NCBI GenBank assembly: GCA_030427925.1
Contig: JAUICJ010000024.1
Location: 1 to 43,327 of the forward strand
Direction of reading: 5' to 3'
DNA length: 43,327 bases
Source: Bacteroidia bacterium
GTDB taxonomy: Bacteria > Bacteroidota > Bacteroidia > Flavobacteriales_D > Sanyastnellaceae
In this document: positions 19,026 through 29,762 of the stretch, piece after piece
Layout: each line of letters opens with the position of its first letter
Position numbering within the stretch: position 1 is the stretch's first letter
Notes under the pieces: model-generated
The model's database searches: none
The model's input: only the letters and a program-made list of their open reading frames with translations
Told to the model about the DNA's origin: nothing
Program-made: the position numbers and the translations under genes

Positions 19026-20501
19026 ATGAACTTGCCCCGACACATCGCTGCGCGCATGGCCCGAACCGACGCACGGGCCTCGTGGTCCCGGCCGGTGGTG
19101 CGCATTGCCACGGCGGGGGTCGCCCTCGGCATCGCGCTGATTATTGTGGCCACCGCGGTGGTGGAGGGGTTCCAGCACGAGGTGAGGGAGTTGGTGGTGG
19201 GGTTTGGGGCGCATGTGCAGGTGCTCTCGACGGACCCTACGGCCCGGAGCATCCGGCTCGATGAGGCGGTGGCTTCCGATTTGTCGGCTGCGCCCGGCGT
19301 GCGGCGCGTCCAGCCGTTCTACACGCTGCCGGGCATCCTCGAAACGAAGGAGGACCATGAAGGTGTGGTGGTGAAGGCCGTGGGGGAGGGGCTGTCGTTC
19401 GAATTGTTGGAACGGTCGATGCTGGCGGGGCGGATTGCGTTGGCGGGGGATTCGGTGGTGGTGAGCGGGCCGCAGGCGCGGGAGTTGCAGCTGGAAGTGG
19501 GGGATGCGGTGCGGCTGTATTTGGTGGCGGACGATGAGGTGCCGCGGCCGCGCCGAATGGGGGTGGCGGGCATCTACGAAACGGGGCTGTACGAATTCGA
19601 TCGGGAGTTCGTGTTCACGCCGGTTGAGGCGGTGACGCGCTCAGCGGGTTGGGGCTTGGAAGCGCAAGGGGCCGCGGTCGAGGGGGCGTTTGAAGCGTTC
19701 GGTTACGGGACGGATCCCGGGCGGTGGTCGTGGTCCAGTTCGGATCCCGCATGGCATGCGGTGGTGAGTCGGTGGCGCGGCCCCGGACCGCATCCGGCCC
19801 CGGCATTGCCAGAGGCTCCGTTCGAAGCGGTCTTCAGCGAGCGCGCAGAGCCGGCTCACAAAACCGCCGACACCGTTCGGTTCACCCCCACCGACACCGG
19901 CTGGGTCGCGCGATCGGCAGGAGGCGGTGCGCGGTTTCATGCTTCCGGCTACGAGGTCTACCTCGACGGGTTCGACGGGCTGTGGCAAGCCGACGAGGCG
20001 CTGTACAGCGCGCTTCCGCTGGGGTGGACCACGAAGACCGTCATCGAGCAGTCGCCGGAGATGTTTTCGTGGCTCGGAATGCTGGATTTGAACGTGGAAA
20101 TCATCATCGGTCTGATGGTGCTGATTTCCATCATCAACATGGCCTCGGCACTGCTCATCATCATCTTGGAGCGCACGGCGATGGTGGGCCTGCTCAAGGC
20201 GTTGGGCTTGTCCGATGGTGCCGTGGTGCGCATTTTTGTTTGGCATGCGGTGCGGATCCTCGGGTGGGGGTTTTTGTGGGGGAATGTGCTCGGCTTGGGT
20301 TTGGCCTGGGGACAAACCGCAACCGCCCTCATCCACCTCGACCCCGCCGCGTATTACGTCGACACGGTGCCCATCCGCTTGAACGCGCTCCGGATCGCGG
20401 GCATCGAAGCGGGCGCTTTCGTCGTGTGCACGGTGGCGCTCGTCCTCCCCGCTTGGGCATCGGCTCGCATTCAGCCCGCTTCAGCGCTGCGGTTTCGCTG
20501 A
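19026..20501 (+). CDS. LolC/FtsX-type ABC transporter permease with an extra insert
   Basis: 491 aa from the ATG at 19026 (MNLPRHIAARMARTDARASW). One membrane helix at about 25-47 (RIATAGVALGIALIIVATAV), a large extracytoplasmic domain, then three helices: IIIGLMVLISIINMASALLI, WGFLWGNVLGLGLAWG and AGAFVVCTVALVLPAWASA. The RTAMVGLLKALGLSDGAVVR loop and RIQPASALRFR tail fit lipoprotein-releasing (LolC/E-like) permeases, which usually have about 400-415 residues. The excess lies around residues 215-300, a W/P/A-rich stretch including WRGPGPHPAPALPEAPFEAV, with no counterpart I know. It probably works in outer-membrane lipoprotein export with a LolD-type ATPase encoded elsewhere. Confidence 0.88.
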   Translation: MNLPRHIAARMARTDARASWSRPVVRIATAGVALGIALIIVATAVVEGFQHEVRELVVGFGAHVQVLSTDPTARSIRLDEAVASDLSAAPGVRRVQPFYTLPGILETKEDHEGVVVKAVGEGLSFELLERSMLAGRIALAGDSVVVSGPQARELQLEVGDAVRLYLVADDEVPRPRRMGVAGIYETGLYEFDREFVFTPVEAVTRSAGWGLEAQGAAVEGAFEAFGYGTDPGRWSWSSSDPAWHAVVSRWRGPGPHPAPALPEAPFEAVFSERAEPAHKTADTVRFTPTDTGWVARSAGGGARFHASGYEVYLDGFDGLWQADEALYSALPLGWTTKTVIEQSPEMFSWLGMLDLNVEIIIGLMVLISIINMASALLIIILERTAMVGLLKALGLSDGAVVRIFVWHAVRILGWGFLWGNVLGLGLAWGQTATALIHLDPAAYYVDTVPIRLNALRIAGIEAGAFVVCTVALVLPAWASARIQPASALRFR

Positions 20502-20635
20502 GTTGGGCTTGGGCGAACGGGGCTGCTTTGGGCGGCGCTGGGAAAGGCACGCGGTGCAGTCCGTGCGGGTGAATGTTGTTTCGGTTTTGATTGAATTTGG
20601 CTTGCTCCCTTCTGGGACAAACCCCGGACGCGCCC

Positions 20636-20643
20636 TACCTTCG
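20636..20643 (+). promoter_or_regulatory. -7 box for the cysteine synthase-family gene
   Basis: TACCTTCG lies 19 nt before the ATG at 20663 and is a one-mismatch TAnnTTTG. It supports the start at 20663 over the earlier in-frame ATG-less extension at 20591. Confidence 0.4.
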
Positions 20644-20662
20644 CATCCACATTTTTTGCACC

Positions 20663-21652
20663 ATGGCCCACCCCTCACGCGTCTACGACAACATCCTGCA
20701 AACCATCGGCGACACCCCGATGATTCGGCTGAACCGCATCGCAGAAGACTTGCCGTGTGAGGTCTGGGCGAAGGTGGAATACTTCAATCCGGGGCACAGC
20801 GTGAAGGACCGGATGGCGCTCCAAATGATCGTGGACGCCGAAGCCCGCGGCGACATCCAACCGGGCGGAACGATCATCGAATGCACGAGCGGCAATACGG
20901 GGATGGGATTGGCTTTGGCCTGCTCCGTGAAAGGGTACCAGCTGATCTGCACGATGAGCGACAAGCAGTCGAAGGAGAAGATCGACATCCTGCGGGCGAT
21001 GGGAGCGGAAGTGCACGTGTGCCCGACGAACGTCAGCGCCGACCACCCGGACAGCTACTACAGCGTGGCGAAGCGGCTGAACGAGTCCATCGAGAATTCC
21101 TTTTGGTGCAACCAGTACGACAACCTCTCGAACAGCGAAGGGCACTACCGGACGACGGGCCCTGAGATCTGGGCCCAAACCGAAGGCCGCATCACCCACT
21201 TCGTCGTGGGCGTGGGCACTGGCGGGACCATCAGCGGCACCGGGCGCTACCTCAAGGAGCAAAACCCGGACATCCAACTCTGGGGCATCGACTCCTACGG
21301 GAGCGTGCTGAAGAAGTACCACGAAACCGGGGAATTCGACGAGTCCGAAATCTATTCGTACATCACCGAAGGCGTGGGCGAGGACATCCTGCCCGCCAAC
21401 GTCGACTTCGGCCTGATCGACCGGTTCGAGAAGGTGACGGACAAGGACGGCGCGTTGGCCGCCCGTGAGCTCGCCCGCACCGAAGGCCTGTTCCTCGGCT
21501 ACTCCTGCGGTTCCACCTTCCAAGGACTGCGGCAGCTGAAGGACGAGCTCAAGCCGACCGACGTGGTGGTGTGCCTGTTCCACGACCACGGTTCGCGCTA
21601 CGTCGGGAAGGTGTACAACGACGACTGGATGCGGAGCCACGGTTGGCTCTGA
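20663..21652 (+). CDS. PLP-dependent cysteine synthase / cystathionine beta-synthase family enzyme
   Basis: 329 aa. The PLP lysine is Lys48 in GHSVKDR; ECTSGNTGMGLALAC binds the substrate and GVGTGGTISGTG binds the cofactor phosphate. The overall pattern (ALQMIVDAEARG; HVCPTNVSADHPDSYYSVA; HYRTTGPEIWAQ; DWMRSHGWL) is closer to the catalytic core of cystathionine beta-synthase than to CysK, but there is no haem-binding N-terminus and no C-terminal CBS pair. It makes cysteine from O-acetylserine and sulfide, or cystathionine from serine and homocysteine; the neighbouring APS reductase favours a cysteine-synthesis role. A weak hairpin (CCCC-GCTT-GGGG, 21679-21690) follows the stop. Confidence 0.88.
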   Translation: MAHPSRVYDNILQTIGDTPMIRLNRIAEDLPCEVWAKVEYFNPGHSVKDRMALQMIVDAEARGDIQPGGTIIECTSGNTGMGLALACSVKGYQLICTMSDKQSKEKIDILRAMGAEVHVCPTNVSADHPDSYYSVAKRLNESIENSFWCNQYDNLSNSEGHYRTTGPEIWAQTEGRITHFVVGVGTGGTISGTGRYLKEQNPDIQLWGIDSYGSVLKKYHETGEFDESEIYSYITEGVGEDILPANVDFGLIDRFEKVTDKDGALAARELARTEGLFLGYSCGSTFQGLRQLKDELKPTDVVVCLFHDHGSRYVGKVYNDDWMRSHGWL

Positions 21653-21690
21653 GCGGATTCTCTGGGTAGTGTCAAAAGCCCCGCTTGGGG

Positions 21691-21721
21691 TTGTGTGACT
21701 TCAGTCACATTCCGAAATTTG
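21691..21721 (+). promoter_or_regulatory. cysH promoter with a CRP/FNR-like dyad between its -33 and -7 boxes
   Basis: TTG at 21691-21693, a 20-bp spacer and GAAATTTG at 21714-21721 form a -33/-7 pair. The box lies 4 nt before the cysH ATG (21726). Within the spacer, 21694-21709 is the perfect dyad TGTGACT-TC-AGTCACA, which matches the CRP-family consensus TGTGA-N6-TCACA at all ten fixed positions. Its place between the two boxes suggests repression by occlusion, or MerR-like spacer control. Confidence 0.6.
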
Positions 21722-21725
21722 CTGC

Positions 21726-22397
21726 ATGACGGCGTTTTCGGAATTGGTGGCGGCGACGGAGTCGGATTTGGCGACGACCTTGGGCGGATTTCGCGAGGAG
21801 GGTCGGCGCATTTACGCGACCTCGTCGTTCCAAACCCAAAGCGTTCCGTTGCTGCACCTGCTCTCCCAGCACGCCGGCGTGTCGGTGGTCCTGATCGATA
21901 CGGGCTACTTGTTCCCCGAGACGTACGATTTTGCTCATGACTTGCAAGGGCGGCTCGGGTTCGACCTCAAGCAGGTCCGCAGCACGCGCACGTATGCCGA
22001 ACAGTGCACGTCGTCTGGGGCGCTCCTGCATACCCGCGACGTGGATGCGTGCTGCCGCTTGAACAAGGTGGAGCCGATGGAGTCGTTGCTCAGGCCGGGG
22101 GATGTTTGGATCAGCGGAATTCGGGCGGACCAAACCGCCACCCGCGCCAGCAAACCCCGCCTCGAAACCGACGACCGCGGCATCCTGCGGTACCACCCGA
22201 TGCTGAAGTGGACCGCCCGCGACATCTACCAGTACCTCCGCGAACACGGCCTGCCGAAGCACCCCCTCGAATCCGCGGGCTACCTGAGCATCGGCTGCCT
22301 CCCTTGCACCCGCAAGTGGGACGGTTCCGACGCCCGCTCCGCCCGTTGGGAAGGCAGTTCGAAAACCGAGTGCGGCTTGCACACCAACACCCCATGA
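21726..22397 (+). CDS. cysH: adenylyl-sulfate / phosphoadenylyl-sulfate reductase (4Fe-4S type)
   Basis: 223 aa. It reduces APS (or PAPS) to sulfite with thioredoxin electrons in assimilatory sulfate reduction. The cluster motif is complete: DACCRLNKV (CC) and GCLPCTRKW (CxxC). The catalytic ECGLH is near the C-terminus (KTECGLHTNTP). SSFQTQSVPLLHLLS is the PP-loop-like start and LIDTGYLFPETYDF the second strand. Presence of the CC/CxxC cluster ligands points to APS as substrate. The stop overlaps the next gene in ATGA. The cysteine synthase-family gene lies 73 bp upstream; the dyad between them suggests separate regulation of cysH. Confidence 0.93.
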   Translation: MTAFSELVAATESDLATTLGGFREEGRRIYATSSFQTQSVPLLHLLSQHAGVSVVLIDTGYLFPETYDFAHDLQGRLGFDLKQVRSTRTYAEQCTSSGALLHTRDVDACCRLNKVEPMESLLRPGDVWISGIRADQTATRASKPRLETDDRGILRYHPMLKWTARDIYQYLREHGLPKHPLESAGYLSIGCLPCTRKWDGSDARSARWEGSSKTECGLHTNTP

Positions 22398-23287
22398 ACG
22401 TATTCATCACCGGCGGAGCCGGTTACATCGGCACCGCCCTGTGCGACGCCCTCGATGCCCGGCCCGAAATCGACCAAATCACCGTATTCGACGCGCTGGC
22501 TCGCGGCGATCGGCGGTTCTTCCTGCGCTCCGAACCCTATCGAAAAGTCCGATTCGTGCACGGCAACGTGCTCGACGGCCGGCAGGTGGAGCAGGCAAGT
22601 CGGGGCCACGACGTCGCCGTGCATTTGGCCGCCTTCGTTGACGAGCCGTACCACCACAGCCAGCACGTTCAATACGAGCAGGTCAACGGGTTCGGCACGT
22701 TGTCGGTGGTGCGCGCTTTGGAGGCGTCGCCTGACCTCAAGCGCGCCATCGCATTGAGCTCGACCGCGGTGTATGGGTTCCGTGCGAACCTGACCGCGGA
22801 TTCCGATCCGGCGCCTGAAAACGGCTACGGCGTTTCGAAGTTGCTCGGGGAGCAATATTTCGCCCAGCTGCGCCATGCGGACAAGGAAGTGCACATCCTG
22901 CGCTCGGGTCAGGTGTTTGGCCCCAACCGCTCCATGCGTTTCGACACCGTGGTGCACGCCTTTTTCTTCGAAGCGCTCACGAAAGGCCGCATCGCCGTCC
23001 ACGGTGACGGCAAGCAATCCCGCGCCTTCGCTGCGCTTCCAGACGTCGTGGACGCGTTGGTCGCTCGGGTTGTGGGGGCGGAGACGCCGATGCTTTTGGC
23101 CTCCTTTCAAGCGACCATTCAGGAGCTCTTGCACTGGATGACGGGCCAAATCCCATCCATCGAATACCGCTACCTCAGCCCCAACATCGCGCTTCCCAGC
23201 CAAACCTTCCAACACCTTCCCGGCCTCAACCCGGATGCGTTGCAATCGGCCTGGGACACTTTCGTTCGGTCCTCTGCAATTCGTTAA
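22394..23287 (+). CDS. NAD-dependent epimerase/dehydratase (extended SDR)
   Basis: 297 aa from the ATG at 22394 in an ATGA overlap with cysH. The Rossmann motif is FITGGAGYIGTAL; VHLAAFVDEP, the catalytic Ser (LSSTAVYG) and YxxxK (YGVSK) are in order. HILRSGQVFGPNRSMRF and the DGKQSRAFAALPDVVDAL block are typical of UDP-sugar epimerases and related NAD(P)-dependent sugar enzymes. The sugar substrate cannot be read from the motifs. Coupling to cysH is by position only; no glycan genes are near. The last third is shorter than in GalE (about 330 aa). Confidence 0.85.
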   Translation: MNVFITGGAGYIGTALCDALDARPEIDQITVFDALARGDRRFFLRSEPYRKVRFVHGNVLDGRQVEQASRGHDVAVHLAAFVDEPYHHSQHVQYEQVNGFGTLSVVRALEASPDLKRAIALSSTAVYGFRANLTADSDPAPENGYGVSKLLGEQYFAQLRHADKEVHILRSGQVFGPNRSMRFDTVVHAFFFEALTKGRIAVHGDGKQSRAFAALPDVVDALVARVVGAETPMLLASFQATIQELLHWMTGQIPSIEYRYLSPNIALPSQTFQHLPGLNPDALQSAWDTFVRSSAIR

Positions 23288-27092: not shown

Positions 27093-29762
27093 TTATTCCA
27101 CCAGGGTCAAGTCGAAGGTGTACCAACCACCATCCCAGAAAATCATCAATCCTTCAAGGACGTTGAAGATCATGGTTCCATTTTCAGGCGTTGCGGGCAG
27201 GGAACCCGTGGTAGTCCAATTCACGTAAGCGGTGGTCGTTCTCGTAGCTTCAATGGTCGGAGCGTGCAACGTGCCAGTTGGTGGCATATGCACATCGCCG
27301 CCATAGAGGAAATATTCATAGGCATAGAGGTTCATGTTCGCCTGGTTCATGTCGGCGTTGTATGCCATTTCGATGCCCGCTTCGTCGCCGCCAACGTTTA
27401 AATTGATTCCACCAGCTGCGCTCAAAACAATGTGGCCATCGGTGTCGGGCTGGTCAAAACCCCACGTTGCGGTAGTTTGCTGAGTGACCTCCAAAGAAGC
27501 TGATGGCGCATCTTCGGAGTCGAGGGAATGGATGTTGAAGTCGTTGGCATAAAGGTTCATGTTCGCGCTTCCATCGTAGCTTACGACTTCCATGCCCGCC
27601 TTTTGGTCAACGGTCAAGTTCATTCCGCTGTTTGCGTTCATCACGACGTGACCGCTTCCAGCCGGCGAGTCGAATTTCCAAGGTGCAGTCGAGGTGACCG
27701 CAAGTTCAATCGAGCTTTGATTGGGGCCATTTGCGTCGACGACGCTGAAAACCGTTGACGCTGAGCCAATGCCGACTTCCTCAGTGCCAGTGATGTTGGT
27801 CGATCCAGCTGCCATGAAGAACAAATCATCGCCTGCATCAATGCCTGCATCGCCTGTGACCACAACGGAGTTGTGCATCGACCGGCTCTCAATCATCCCA
27901 CCGGCTTTGATGTTCAACTGACCATCAACAGCGTCCACGTTCATGTCGCCGGTGTTTGCAAACAGCGAAACGGTCCCGCAGTCCCGGCAAATTTCCAAGC
28001 CGCCCGTGTTTTCCGAATAGATCGAAATGTCGTCGGAGCTATTCATGTAGATGACCGGCATGGTATTATCCCAATAGTCTTCATTGGGATCAGAGTAATG
28101 CCAATAGCCATCGCCTTCGGCGAAATCATCGCCACTGTAATCGGCCAGCTCTACTTTGAGGCCCCCGTCCATGGCGGTGTTGGAAATGTCGCCTTCACTG
28201 TAGACTTTGTAAGAACCGAGCGTGCTCACAAATCCGCTTCCCTGTGTGTTGACGAAGAGGTCATTGCCACTGATGACGCTGATGTCTTCGCCTGATTCGA
28301 GGGTAACGTCCCCGTCAGATTCCAAGTCCATGAAGGCTCGTCCCGAGATGCTATTGTATCCCATTTCCACGGAAGCCCACCGCGTACCTGCAGAGGGGTT
28401 GACGGAATAGATATCGAGGGAATTGGAATAGACGTCCATGTTCGCGCCTCCATCATAGCTTACGACTTCCATGCCCGCCTTTTGGTCAACGGTCAGGTTC
28501 ATGCCGCCGGAAGCGTTCATCACGATGTGCCCGTTTTGGTCAGGACCACCGTACAGCCAGGGATCCGTGCTGTTGGCCCAAGCGATATCGAGGTATGCCG
28601 GCGCATCCCCATCGTCGCTGACCTCGCTGTGAATTCGGTCAAAGGAATACATGTTCACACCACCGTAGCCGTTGAGGAACAAATTATCATTAGCGTCAAT
28701 GCCTGCATCGCCTGTGACTTGGATGTGGTTGTGCGTCGACGTGCTCTCAATCAGCTCCGCGGCCTTCAGGTTCAATTGACCATCAGCGGCATCAAGGGTC
28801 ACGTCACCTCCCCAGGATTTGAGCTGCATGTTGACATCGGAATAGAAGTCCATTTTATGGGCCCACATGTTCGAGTTGATCCGGTCGGTGTTGATGTCGT
28901 AAGCCATTTCCAAACCACCGAAACCGCCATCAACGCTCAAGGCCACTCCTCCCTCCCCTTCGAGGAAAATCTGTCCAGCTTGGTCAGGGTAACCGTACCA
29001 ATACGTTCCGGAGGGATAATCGGAGACTTCGATGAAACTCGAGGATGTTCCTGCTGAAACACGGAAATCCTCAGCAGCCTCGTGGACGATGTTTTTGCCT
29101 AGGAAAAGCAGCGAGTCTTGTGCCCACAGAATTTGGTCGCCTTCGATGGTTCCTTCTAATTCAGTTGAAAAGGCGAATTGGCCTACTTCGGCGGAGTCGA
29201 GGAATGCCCTGACGTTGCCTGCATCGGTGCCTTCATCCCCAGAAAAGAATGCCTCCAAGATGAGTTCAGGTGAGGCCCCAAGTGGGTTGTTTCCACCCAC
29301 GAGATCCAGATCGAGGGAATTCCATCCCACATTGGAAACCCCAACTTGCAGGTTGGCAAAGGATGCCTCGATGTTCGCTTGTGCAGCTCCAAAGGTCACG
29401 GGCATGGGGGTGCCATTCATGTCAATGTCGGTGATGCCCATCATCCCGCCTTCGGTTGAAAAAGCTTGGAAGCCACCTTGCTGCACCGTTAGGGTGTTGA
29501 GGTAGTTGTATACCGTATCGGGATCCGCCGGCGTCGAAGTCAAGGTCTCCAAATCGTCGACCCACTTGAACAAGGAGTCAATCGATTGCTGCAATCGTTT
29601 TCCATCCACGTCCAGGAACGCCTTGTTTCCCGACGTGGTGGTGATGACGACTTGCTGGAAGTCGTTTTGGGCGGACGCACTCCCCATCGAGAGGGCGAAC
29701 AGGGAGCAAAGTGCAGATGCGGACATCCACCGCGCTCCGGTTTTGAGGTTAAAGTGACTCAT
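27093..29762 (-). CDS. large secreted beta-repeat, tail-fibre-like protein
   Basis: 889 aa, complete. A signal peptide (ARWMSASALCSLFALSMGSA, then SAQ) is followed by a short helix (RLQQSIDSLFKWVDDLETL) and then about 800 residues of N/D/G-rich beta repeats. The module HIVMNA.GGMNLTVDQKAG then MEVVSYDG.ANM recurs twice, and DAVDGQLNIKAG / DAADGQLNLKAA, VTGDAGIDA and GHIVLSA recur as well. The C-terminus (ENGTMIFNVLEGLMIFWDGG, then WYTFDL) is the closing motif of many tail-fibre-like and Bacteroidota surface proteins. It probably forms an extended fibre at the surface or is secreted; no enzymatic domain or T9SS tail was recognised. Base composition is visibly AT-richer than the neighbours, suggesting transfer or relaxed selection. 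Confidence 0.85.
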   Translation of the reverse strand: MSHFNLKTGARWMSASALCSLFALSMGSASAQNDFQQVVITTTSGNKAFLDVDGKRLQQSIDSLFKWVDDLETLTSTPADPDTVYNYLNTLTVQQGGFQAFSTEGGMMGITDIDMNGTPMPVTFGAAQANIEASFANLQVGVSNVGWNSLDLDLVGGNNPLGASPELILEAFFSGDEGTDAGNVRAFLDSAEVGQFAFSTELEGTIEGDQILWAQDSLLFLGKNIVHEAAEDFRVSAGTSSSFIEVSDYPSGTYWYGYPDQAGQIFLEGEGGVALSVDGGFGGLEMAYDINTDRINSNMWAHKMDFYSDVNMQLKSWGGDVTLDAADGQLNLKAAELIESTSTHNHIQVTGDAGIDANDNLFLNGYGGVNMYSFDRIHSEVSDDGDAPAYLDIAWANSTDPWLYGGPDQNGHIVMNASGGMNLTVDQKAGMEVVSYDGGANMDVYSNSLDIYSVNPSAGTRWASVEMGYNSISGRAFMDLESDGDVTLESGEDISVISGNDLFVNTQGSGFVSTLGSYKVYSEGDISNTAMDGGLKVELADYSGDDFAEGDGYWHYSDPNEDYWDNTMPVIYMNSSDDISIYSENTGGLEICRDCGTVSLFANTGDMNVDAVDGQLNIKAGGMIESRSMHNSVVVTGDAGIDAGDDLFFMAAGSTNITGTEEVGIGSASTVFSVVDANGPNQSSIELAVTSTAPWKFDSPAGSGHVVMNANSGMNLTVDQKAGMEVVSYDGSANMNLYANDFNIHSLDSEDAPSASLEVTQQTTATWGFDQPDTDGHIVLSAAGGINLNVGGDEAGIEMAYNADMNQANMNLYAYEYFLYGGDVHMPPTGTLHAPTIEATRTTTAYVNWTTTGSLPATPENGTMIFNVLEGLMIFWDGGWYTFDLTLVE
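27572..27652 (-). repeat. internal coding repeat, copy 2 (C-terminal side of the protein)
   Basis: An 81-bp in-frame stretch that is nearly identical to 28451-28531 (offset 879 bp, 293 codons). It encodes GMNLTVDQKAGMEVVSYDG. Confidence 0.8.
28451..28531 (-). repeat. internal coding repeat, copy 1
   Basis: Partner of 27572-27652. A second shared segment, 23 bp at 27838-27860 and 28696-28718, encodes the VTGDAGIDA module at an offset of 858 bp, so the two halves of the gene look duplicated with small length changes. Confidence 0.8.

Follow-up and report, generated by a model that had tools for sequence, protein, structure and literature searches.

The cysH promoter and its dyad

The window, meaning the whole stretch of 43,327 nucleotides that was analysed, is one entire contig of the 2,948,596-bp genome of a Bacteroidia bacterium (G000), which we compared with a congener (G001). 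A gene for a PALP-family enzyme, labelled cysK, is followed by cysH, and the 73-bp gap between the two genes contains a perfect dyad (Table 1). The dyad carries 10/10 fixed bases of the CRP-like motif TGTGA-N6-TCACA, and its sequence and coordinates are those given in the original prediction. The predicted placement between a TTG and a -7-like box with a 20-bp spacer was also found as described and is kept in the congener, whose corresponding block is TTG-TGTGACTCCGGTCACA-N4-GAAATTTG at unchanged distances. In both species, the dyad stops 4 nt before GAAATTTG, which places the candidate operator within the core promoter.

The dyad is centred 24.5 bp before the cysH ATG, close to the 24 bp estimated originally. 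The consensus of Bacteroidota promoters is TTTG/TANNTTTG, the -7 box being numbered from -12 to -5 in the excerpt of PMC6847099. By this numbering, the predicted +1 falls on the A of the ATG, the dyad spans -32 to -17 with its centre at about -24.5, and the mRNA would be nearly leaderless. Leaderless-type mRNAs are uncommon, amounting to 5.5% in F. psychrophilum according to the excerpt of PMC9723704. A scan of 20500-22500 for sigma-70-type promoters, a type of scan that does not cover Bacteroidota promoters, found none. With a MerR-type promoter, the cysH promoter shares only the place of the predicted operator in the spacer, and none of the observations favours a MerR-like protein. Further upstream, the octamer TGTCAAAA is kept in the congener although many bases around it differ.

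Table 1. Coordinates of the features at the cysH locus (window positions) and of the related sites and regulator genes in G000 (contig:position)
Feature	Position	Strand	Basis or remark
PALP enzyme, 'cysK'	20663..21652	+	best NCBIfam match cysteate synthase CapA
TGTCAAAA	21670..21677	+	upstream of the dyad, common to both species
TTG, -33 element (at -35 to -33)	21691..21693	+	sequence; kept in G001
Dyad TGTGACTTCAGTCACA (site 1, cysH)	21694..21709	.	predicted Crp-family operator; sequence, conserved in congener G001; exact TGTGACN4GTCACA
GAAATTTG, -7 element	21714..21721	+	G replaces T at -12 of TANNTTTG; kept in G001
cysH, PAPS/APS reductase	21726..22397	+	PF01507, 141 bits; NF002537, 225.7 bits, above the cut-off of 154
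Site 2	C15:28777		before SorA-like sulfite dehydrogenase, then small CxxCH protein, then two-domain rhodanese
Site 3	C22:42787		before TauE/SafE permease, then metallo-beta-lactamase/rhodanese fusion and two sulfur-transport-family genes
Site 4			between rhodanese and LolA-like genes, both species; one mismatch off GTGACN4GTCAC
Plain Crp-type protein, 218 aa	C22:86004-86660		PF00027 and PF13545 above cut-off
Receiver-cNMP-Crp HTH fusion	C15:150981-152027 (L152 5982-7028)		after a sensor-histidine-kinase-looking gene

Occurrence of the dyad in the window and the genome

Allowing up to three mismatches, the window contains three matches, namely the dyad, which counts once per strand, and a single site at 28628, and 0/100 shuffles reached three. 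The place at 28628-28643, TGTGAATTCGGTCAAA, is the sole other near match in the window and lies inside a predicted coding sequence. In the whole G000 genome, exact TGTGACN4GTCACA occurs at one place, before cysH, as opposed to 0.13 places expected from the base composition of the window. The less demanding patterns are not rarer than chance would have them: exact TGTGAN6TCACA occurs at 2 places (1.4 expected) and GTGACN4GTCAC at 3 (3.4 expected).

Up to two mismatches to TGTGACN4GTCACA gave 43 places in G000 and 25 in G001, compared with 26 and 22 for the respective reversed controls. Since any GTGACN4GTCAC differs from this pattern at two positions or fewer, these lists are complete for GTGACN4GTCAC. 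For TGTGAN6TCACA with up to one mismatch, we counted 27 places against 8 in the reversed control (G000) and 19 against 9 (G001); 18/27 and 13/19 of them fall within genes, as called by a codon-usage gene finder that is rough on starts. The count of GTGACN4GTCAC being at chance level, the evidence is the location and the conservation of the sites.

Single intergenic near matches were also seen, for example before genes for a Na:alanine symporter, a peroxiredoxin and NqrA. The congener also has a perfect TGTGAN6TCACA, TGTGAATGGGTTCACA, at C378:4208 (L102 1509-1524), between two genes of which one looks like a sulfotransferase; no counterpart is in the G000 list for TGTGAN6TCACA.

The same sites precede the same sulfur genes in two species

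The original prediction had proposed a search of the genome for the dyad and asked whether other sulfur genes carry it. Intact GTGACN4GTCAC precedes the same genes in both species (3/3 sites in G000 and 3/3 in G001): besides cysH, these are the genes of the SorA-like and the TauE sets (Table 1). By gene prediction, the SorA site in G000 overlaps the last bases of the preceding gene. Together with the fourth site, the pairs compared between G000 and G001 retain 40/40 bases in the half-site arms, 7/16 in the loops and 86/160 in the flanking 20-mers. The loop of the TauE pair differs at 4/4 bases with the arms intact, albeit in a neighbourhood where the downstream flank itself is kept at 18/20. 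Such preservation of the arms with diverged loops is what a site bound by a protein would show, and differs from the pattern of mere kinship between the species or of a hairpin in RNA.

The distances from the dyads to the predicted -7 boxes form two further arrangements. At the TauE promoter, the dyad lies 21 nt before the box in both species, which puts its centre at -41.5, and at the rhodanese promoter the distance is 21 or 22 nt depending on how the box is read. Judged from predicted boxes, these two promoters have the class II arrangement. The SorA-like and LolA-like promoters have a distance of 49 nt, or a centre at about -69.5, in both species. A single further site with the same activator geometry as TauE was seen in G000 at C45:34151 (L135 1452-1467), where TGTGACAGCCGTTACG precedes GACATTTG by exactly 21 nt; this box is at the start of cydA, the gene of cytochrome bd subunit I.

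The SorA-like protein has NF052245 (SorA) as its best NCBIfam match, with 267 bits against a cut-off of 600; PF00174 and PF03404 score above cut-off, and the protein matches solved sulfite oxidases. The fusion protein on C22 consists of PF00753 and two PF00581 domains, which suggests a persulfide dioxygenase, with NF040641 (Blh) at 64.3 bits against a cut-off of 625. Apart from the LolA-like and YeeE-type proteins, the predicted targets belong to families whose members produce, consume, export or oxidise sulfite or persulfide.

A Crp-family gene adjoins dyad promoters in relatives

Two proteins of G000 have a cNMP domain, both with a Crp-type HTH (Table 1). One, on C15, is a receiver/Crp fusion, an unusual two-component Crp regulator. 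The other, on C22, is of the plain Crp type and combines the cNMP-binding and Crp HTH domains of a CRP/FNR regulator. Homologues of the C22 protein were found in 100/150 genomes of the order, its own included (E up to 1e-20); the 100 matched genomes do not include G001, which may lie outside the 150. In the G000 stretches read, the C22 crp gene adjoins none of the four sites.

We collected the 30 best loci, own included, and, after the geometry had been seen, 40 further regions as a test. With the own locus L154 left out of these 70 (L154-L183 and L219-L258), 69 regions downstream of crp genes were obtained. The 40 new regions were the entries of the homologue list lacking a locus, taken in order of E value, with G147, which meets a contig end, replaced by G186; two of the regions, L251 and L252, have fewer than 320 bases. 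A dyad was accepted with at least 9/12 positions and a box was defined as 8 bases ending in TTG. A downstream sulfur gene was one for TauE, a dioxygenase-like protein, a rhodanese or YeeE (tblastn, 1e-6, hand count), and L240, where TauE lies upstream and not downstream, was placed in the group having none.

By these definitions, 35/69 regions have a sulfur gene downstream of the crp gene. A dyad exactly 21 nt before a -7 box is present in 24/69 regions, compared with 0-3 regions at any other spacing between 0 and 60 and with 0.10 regions on average over 60 rounds of shuffling. All 24 regions are among the 35 with a downstream sulfur gene, as opposed to 0/34 of those having none (p 2e-10, the loci being related by descent). 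The second sample of 40 regions alone contributed 8 such cases, and 11/35 crp genes with downstream sulfur genes do not have the exact 21-nt configuration. Given the box at -12 to -5, a distance of 21 nt sets the dyad centre at -41.5, which is the position of a class II CRP activator.

The recognition helix covaries with the half-site

In E. coli CRP, the recognition helix has the form R-E---R, and its E, at the position corresponding to residue 184 of the C22 protein, reads the G of TGTGA. The helix residues R183, S187 and R188 are invariant in 70/70 homologues of the C22 protein, including both arginines of this form. Residue 184 varies: 36 homologues have E and 34 have V, the G000 protein itself being one of those with E. 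We read the half-sites at the 21-nt spacing regardless of their third base, requiring at least 7/8 core bases, which excluded 6/35 loci. The third half-site base is G in 27/42 half-sites next to genes for E184 proteins, the rest being A; for V184 proteins it is A in 12/16, with G in 2 and T in 2. The covariation has a Fisher p of 0.0008 over 29 of 35 loci, a calculation that ignores the kinship of the loci, and the 29/35 is itself a looser count of the configuration that lacks a chance control. E thus goes with GTGAC and V with GTAAC half-sites, and the G000 protein with E has GTGAC sites. Residue 184 is possibly a natural specificity switch within the family.

The homologues also share a pair of cysteines in a C-x5-C arrangement, C78 in 70/70 and C84 in 61/70; both are present in 23/24 loci with the 21-nt configuration. 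Among the 34 PDB matches of the C22 protein, the best solved sequence match is 3dv8 (3.3e-22), a Crp/Fnr-family transcriptional regulator, presumably from Eubacterium rectale, which has a C-x5-C at the aligned place and an entry name that gives no function. The C-x5-C also aligns with a stretch of NtcA that we take to be its effector cassette. The conserved cysteine pair suggests that the protein senses sulfur species.

Sulfite as a possible end product of the cysH pathway

The original prediction spoke of control over sulfate reduction. This is borne out in part. A sulfite reductase (NIR_SIR) domain was found in 0/2 genomes, G000 (99.5% complete) and G001 (87% complete), as opposed to 11/14 control genomes, so that the enzyme expected for assimilatory reduction to sulfide was not detected. 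The PALP enzyme next to cysH matches CapA (NF053679) best of 34 families, with 466.9 bits over residues 5-327, below the cut-off of 600; cystathionine beta-synthase is second with 406.3 bits, also under its cut-off. A second, CysM-like enzyme is encoded on C40.

Sulfite is the co-substrate of cysteate synthase. This enzyme is the first of sulfonolipid synthesis, starting from phosphoserine (PMC11211663, excerpt), and cysteate is the substrate of the enzyme SulA (PMC9304779, excerpt). The missing NIR_SIR match and the affinity of the PALP enzyme to CapA, albeit below cut-off, thus raise the prospect that the pathway ends in sulfite and that CysH may feed this sulfite into cysteate and sulfonolipid synthesis. 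In our literature search, no paper was found that joins sulfonolipid, cysteate synthase and sulfite.

The sulfate-activation genes lie on C25, with APS kinase and CysD followed by a CysN-looking protein. No dyad was found in the 3.4-kb stretch read there (L202), which ends inside a gene of the set with the promoter of that gene outside the stretch, nor in its G001 counterpart (L203), and the genome-wide dyad lists of G000 contain no place on C25.

The cysH site beyond the congener

Absence of the dyad upstream of cysH in close relatives had been named by the original prediction as an argument against it. The outcome is divided: the single congener compared has the dyad, whereas intact GTGACN4GTCAC is absent from 13/13 cysH stretches of 13 more distant genomes, sampled from 27 such genomes with a CysH match; two near matches in those stretches (L210 and L216) do not stand before cysH. 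The cysH site is accordingly known in two species, G000 and G001. The exact repressor-geometry pattern occurs in 18/249 genomes, far below the about 85 matches (hand count) of the reversed control, and when the 16 loci outside G000 and G001 were compared by tblastn with 12 sulfur and regulator proteins of the own genome, 0 of them held a match. The family-wide pattern with a -7 box one base off occurs in 9/114 genomes, including the own genome and the congener.

Weighing the explanations

The reading that best accounts for these observations, and that we regard as probable, is that the dyad is the operator of a Crp/FNR regulator governing sulfite and persulfide homeostasis. At cysH itself, the dyad is very probably the operator of a Crp-family sulfur regulator, the most likely candidate being the C22 protein. 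A different protein might bind the dyad, either the C15 response-regulator/Crp fusion or a member of another family, with the C22 protein as a bystander. The presence of two cNMP-domain proteins with a Crp-type HTH in G000 would permit this, as would the separation of the C22 crp gene from the four sites and the lack of G001 among the matched genomes. However, it is the C22-type gene that adjoins dyad promoters in relatives and the C22-type helix that covaries with the half-site, and the fusion protein has ASESIIR where the C22 protein has SREVISR. We consider another binder improbable. Hardly more probable is activation of cysH, from an unusual position or another start, in place of repression; it would find some room in the imperfect -7 box, with its G at -12, and in the nearly leaderless mRNA that the box implies. 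The identical spacing of TTG, dyad and GAAATTTG in both species speaks against it, as do the other promoters of the set, where the dyad stands at least 17 bp further upstream.

Two further readings were rejected. The dyad strand can fold as a 7-bp hairpin of -7.8 kcal/mol and could in principle be a terminator of the upstream gene or a cysH attenuator. No T run follows the dyad, though, and a search of 20500-22500 gave no terminator-like site, on which grounds we discarded the terminator or attenuator. Moreover, this dyad is met again 21 nt in front of -7 boxes, where it precedes the predicted starts, and the cysH arms are kept at 10/10 bases with no compensatory change while the loop differs at 2/4, making a role as RNA very unlikely. 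Chance, or neutral conservation between close species, would be in keeping with the 1.4 exact TGTGAN6TCACA and 3.4 GTGACN4GTCAC expected per genome of this size. Against it stand the contrast of the arms with the flanks and the coincidence of both complete site lists at orthologous sulfur promoters; by this conservation and the lists common to G000 and G001, we rejected chance, the least credible of the four. The operator reading is thus retained, and the original suggestion that a CRP/FNR-family protein controls cysH, bound where it would block polymerase, is supported: it agrees with the recurrence of the dyad at further sulfur promoters of both species, with the Crp-family gene just before dyad promoters in relatives, and with a recognition helix that changes with the half-site.

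Comparison with known regulators

The promoters with the dyad at -41.5 resemble E. coli CRP class II promoters in the TGTGA-N6-TCACA motif, the position and the R-E---R helix. E. coli CRP uses cAMP, whereas we have no evidence of cAMP for the C22 protein, whose aligned effector region carries the C-x5-C. In established CRP logic, -41.5 and -69.5 are activator positions and a position within the promoter is that of a repressor.

The closest concept to the proposed cysH regulator is HcpR of Desulfovibrio, a CRP/FNR protein with the consensus TTGTGAnnnnnnTCACAA. In the excerpt of the 2004 study, the predicted role of HcpR is repression of the sulfate-reduction genes sat and apsAB, where its sites overlap the -10 box, and activation of other genes whose sites lie upstream; the regulon is said to exist in Bacteroides as well (PMC545781). 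The targets of HcpR are dissimilatory genes with an hcp core, as opposed to the genes for disposal of sulfite and persulfide here. None of the chains among the 34 PDB matches is named HcpR, a result by which orthology is not judged.

The reactive-sulfur sensors covered by the excerpt of a review are CstR, SqrR/BigR, PigS and FisR, which sense by paired cysteines, as the C-x5-C of the C22 protein may do, and which belong to CsoR, ArsR and Fis-type families rather than to the Crp family (PMC9774590). Like the regulator proposed here, BigR controls a sulfur transferase/dioxygenase, judging from a reference title in that review. A Crp-family sensor is not named in the same excerpt, where 'crp' appears solely in two cited titles on Shewanella respiration. 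Crp of Acinetobacter baumannii was reported to be persulfidated in sulfide-exposed cells and is 50% identical to E. coli Crp (PMC7315123, excerpt). Among titles and abstract starts, with few subscription journals covered, we found no account of a Crp-family protein that regulates genes for persulfide dioxygenase, a sulfite exporter or rhodanese.

Proposed mechanism and implications

What the genomes show directly is where the sites lie, how they are conserved and spaced, and that crp genes are linked to such promoters in relatives. The mechanism proposed here adds binding, a direction of regulation and a signal, which we infer from these features. In its most economical form, the Crp/FNR regulator would bind DNA when the cell has ample persulfide or sulfite. 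Bound at about -41.5, it would act on the TauE/dioxygenase-like and rhodanese promoters as a class II activator of the CRP type; its place on the SorA-like and LolA-like promoters would be near -69.5, in a class I-like manner. The cysH dyad, centred at about -24.5, falls between the -33 element and the -7 element, and a protein bound there would exclude RNA polymerase. Plentiful persulfide or sulfite would consequently switch disposal on and cysH, which makes sulfite from activated sulfate, off.

Tentatively, and with more doubt than confidence, we extend this to the Flavobacteriales: a Crp-fold sensor would read persulfide or sulfite through its C-x5-C, located where its relatives have their effector cassette, activate disposal and shut the APS reductase, the source of sulfite for cysteate and sulfonolipid, thereby coupling the supply of membrane sulfonolipid to sulfur stress. 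If true, the charged sensor would activate persulfide dioxygenase, sulfite export and sulfite oxidation via rigid class II and class I promoters, and the Crp family would join the reactive-sulfur sensors, among which the excerpt of the review (PMC9774590) does not list it. The presence of cysH with no sulfite reductase detected in the two genomes suggests that its sulfite serves sulfonolipid rather than cysteine synthesis. The geometry predicts for every target whether it is turned up or down, and since only two cysteines are concerned, two point changes would suffice to probe the sensing. For sulfur homeostasis throughout an order of Bacteroidota, the analysis would name a specific regulator together with its operator and promoter geometry.
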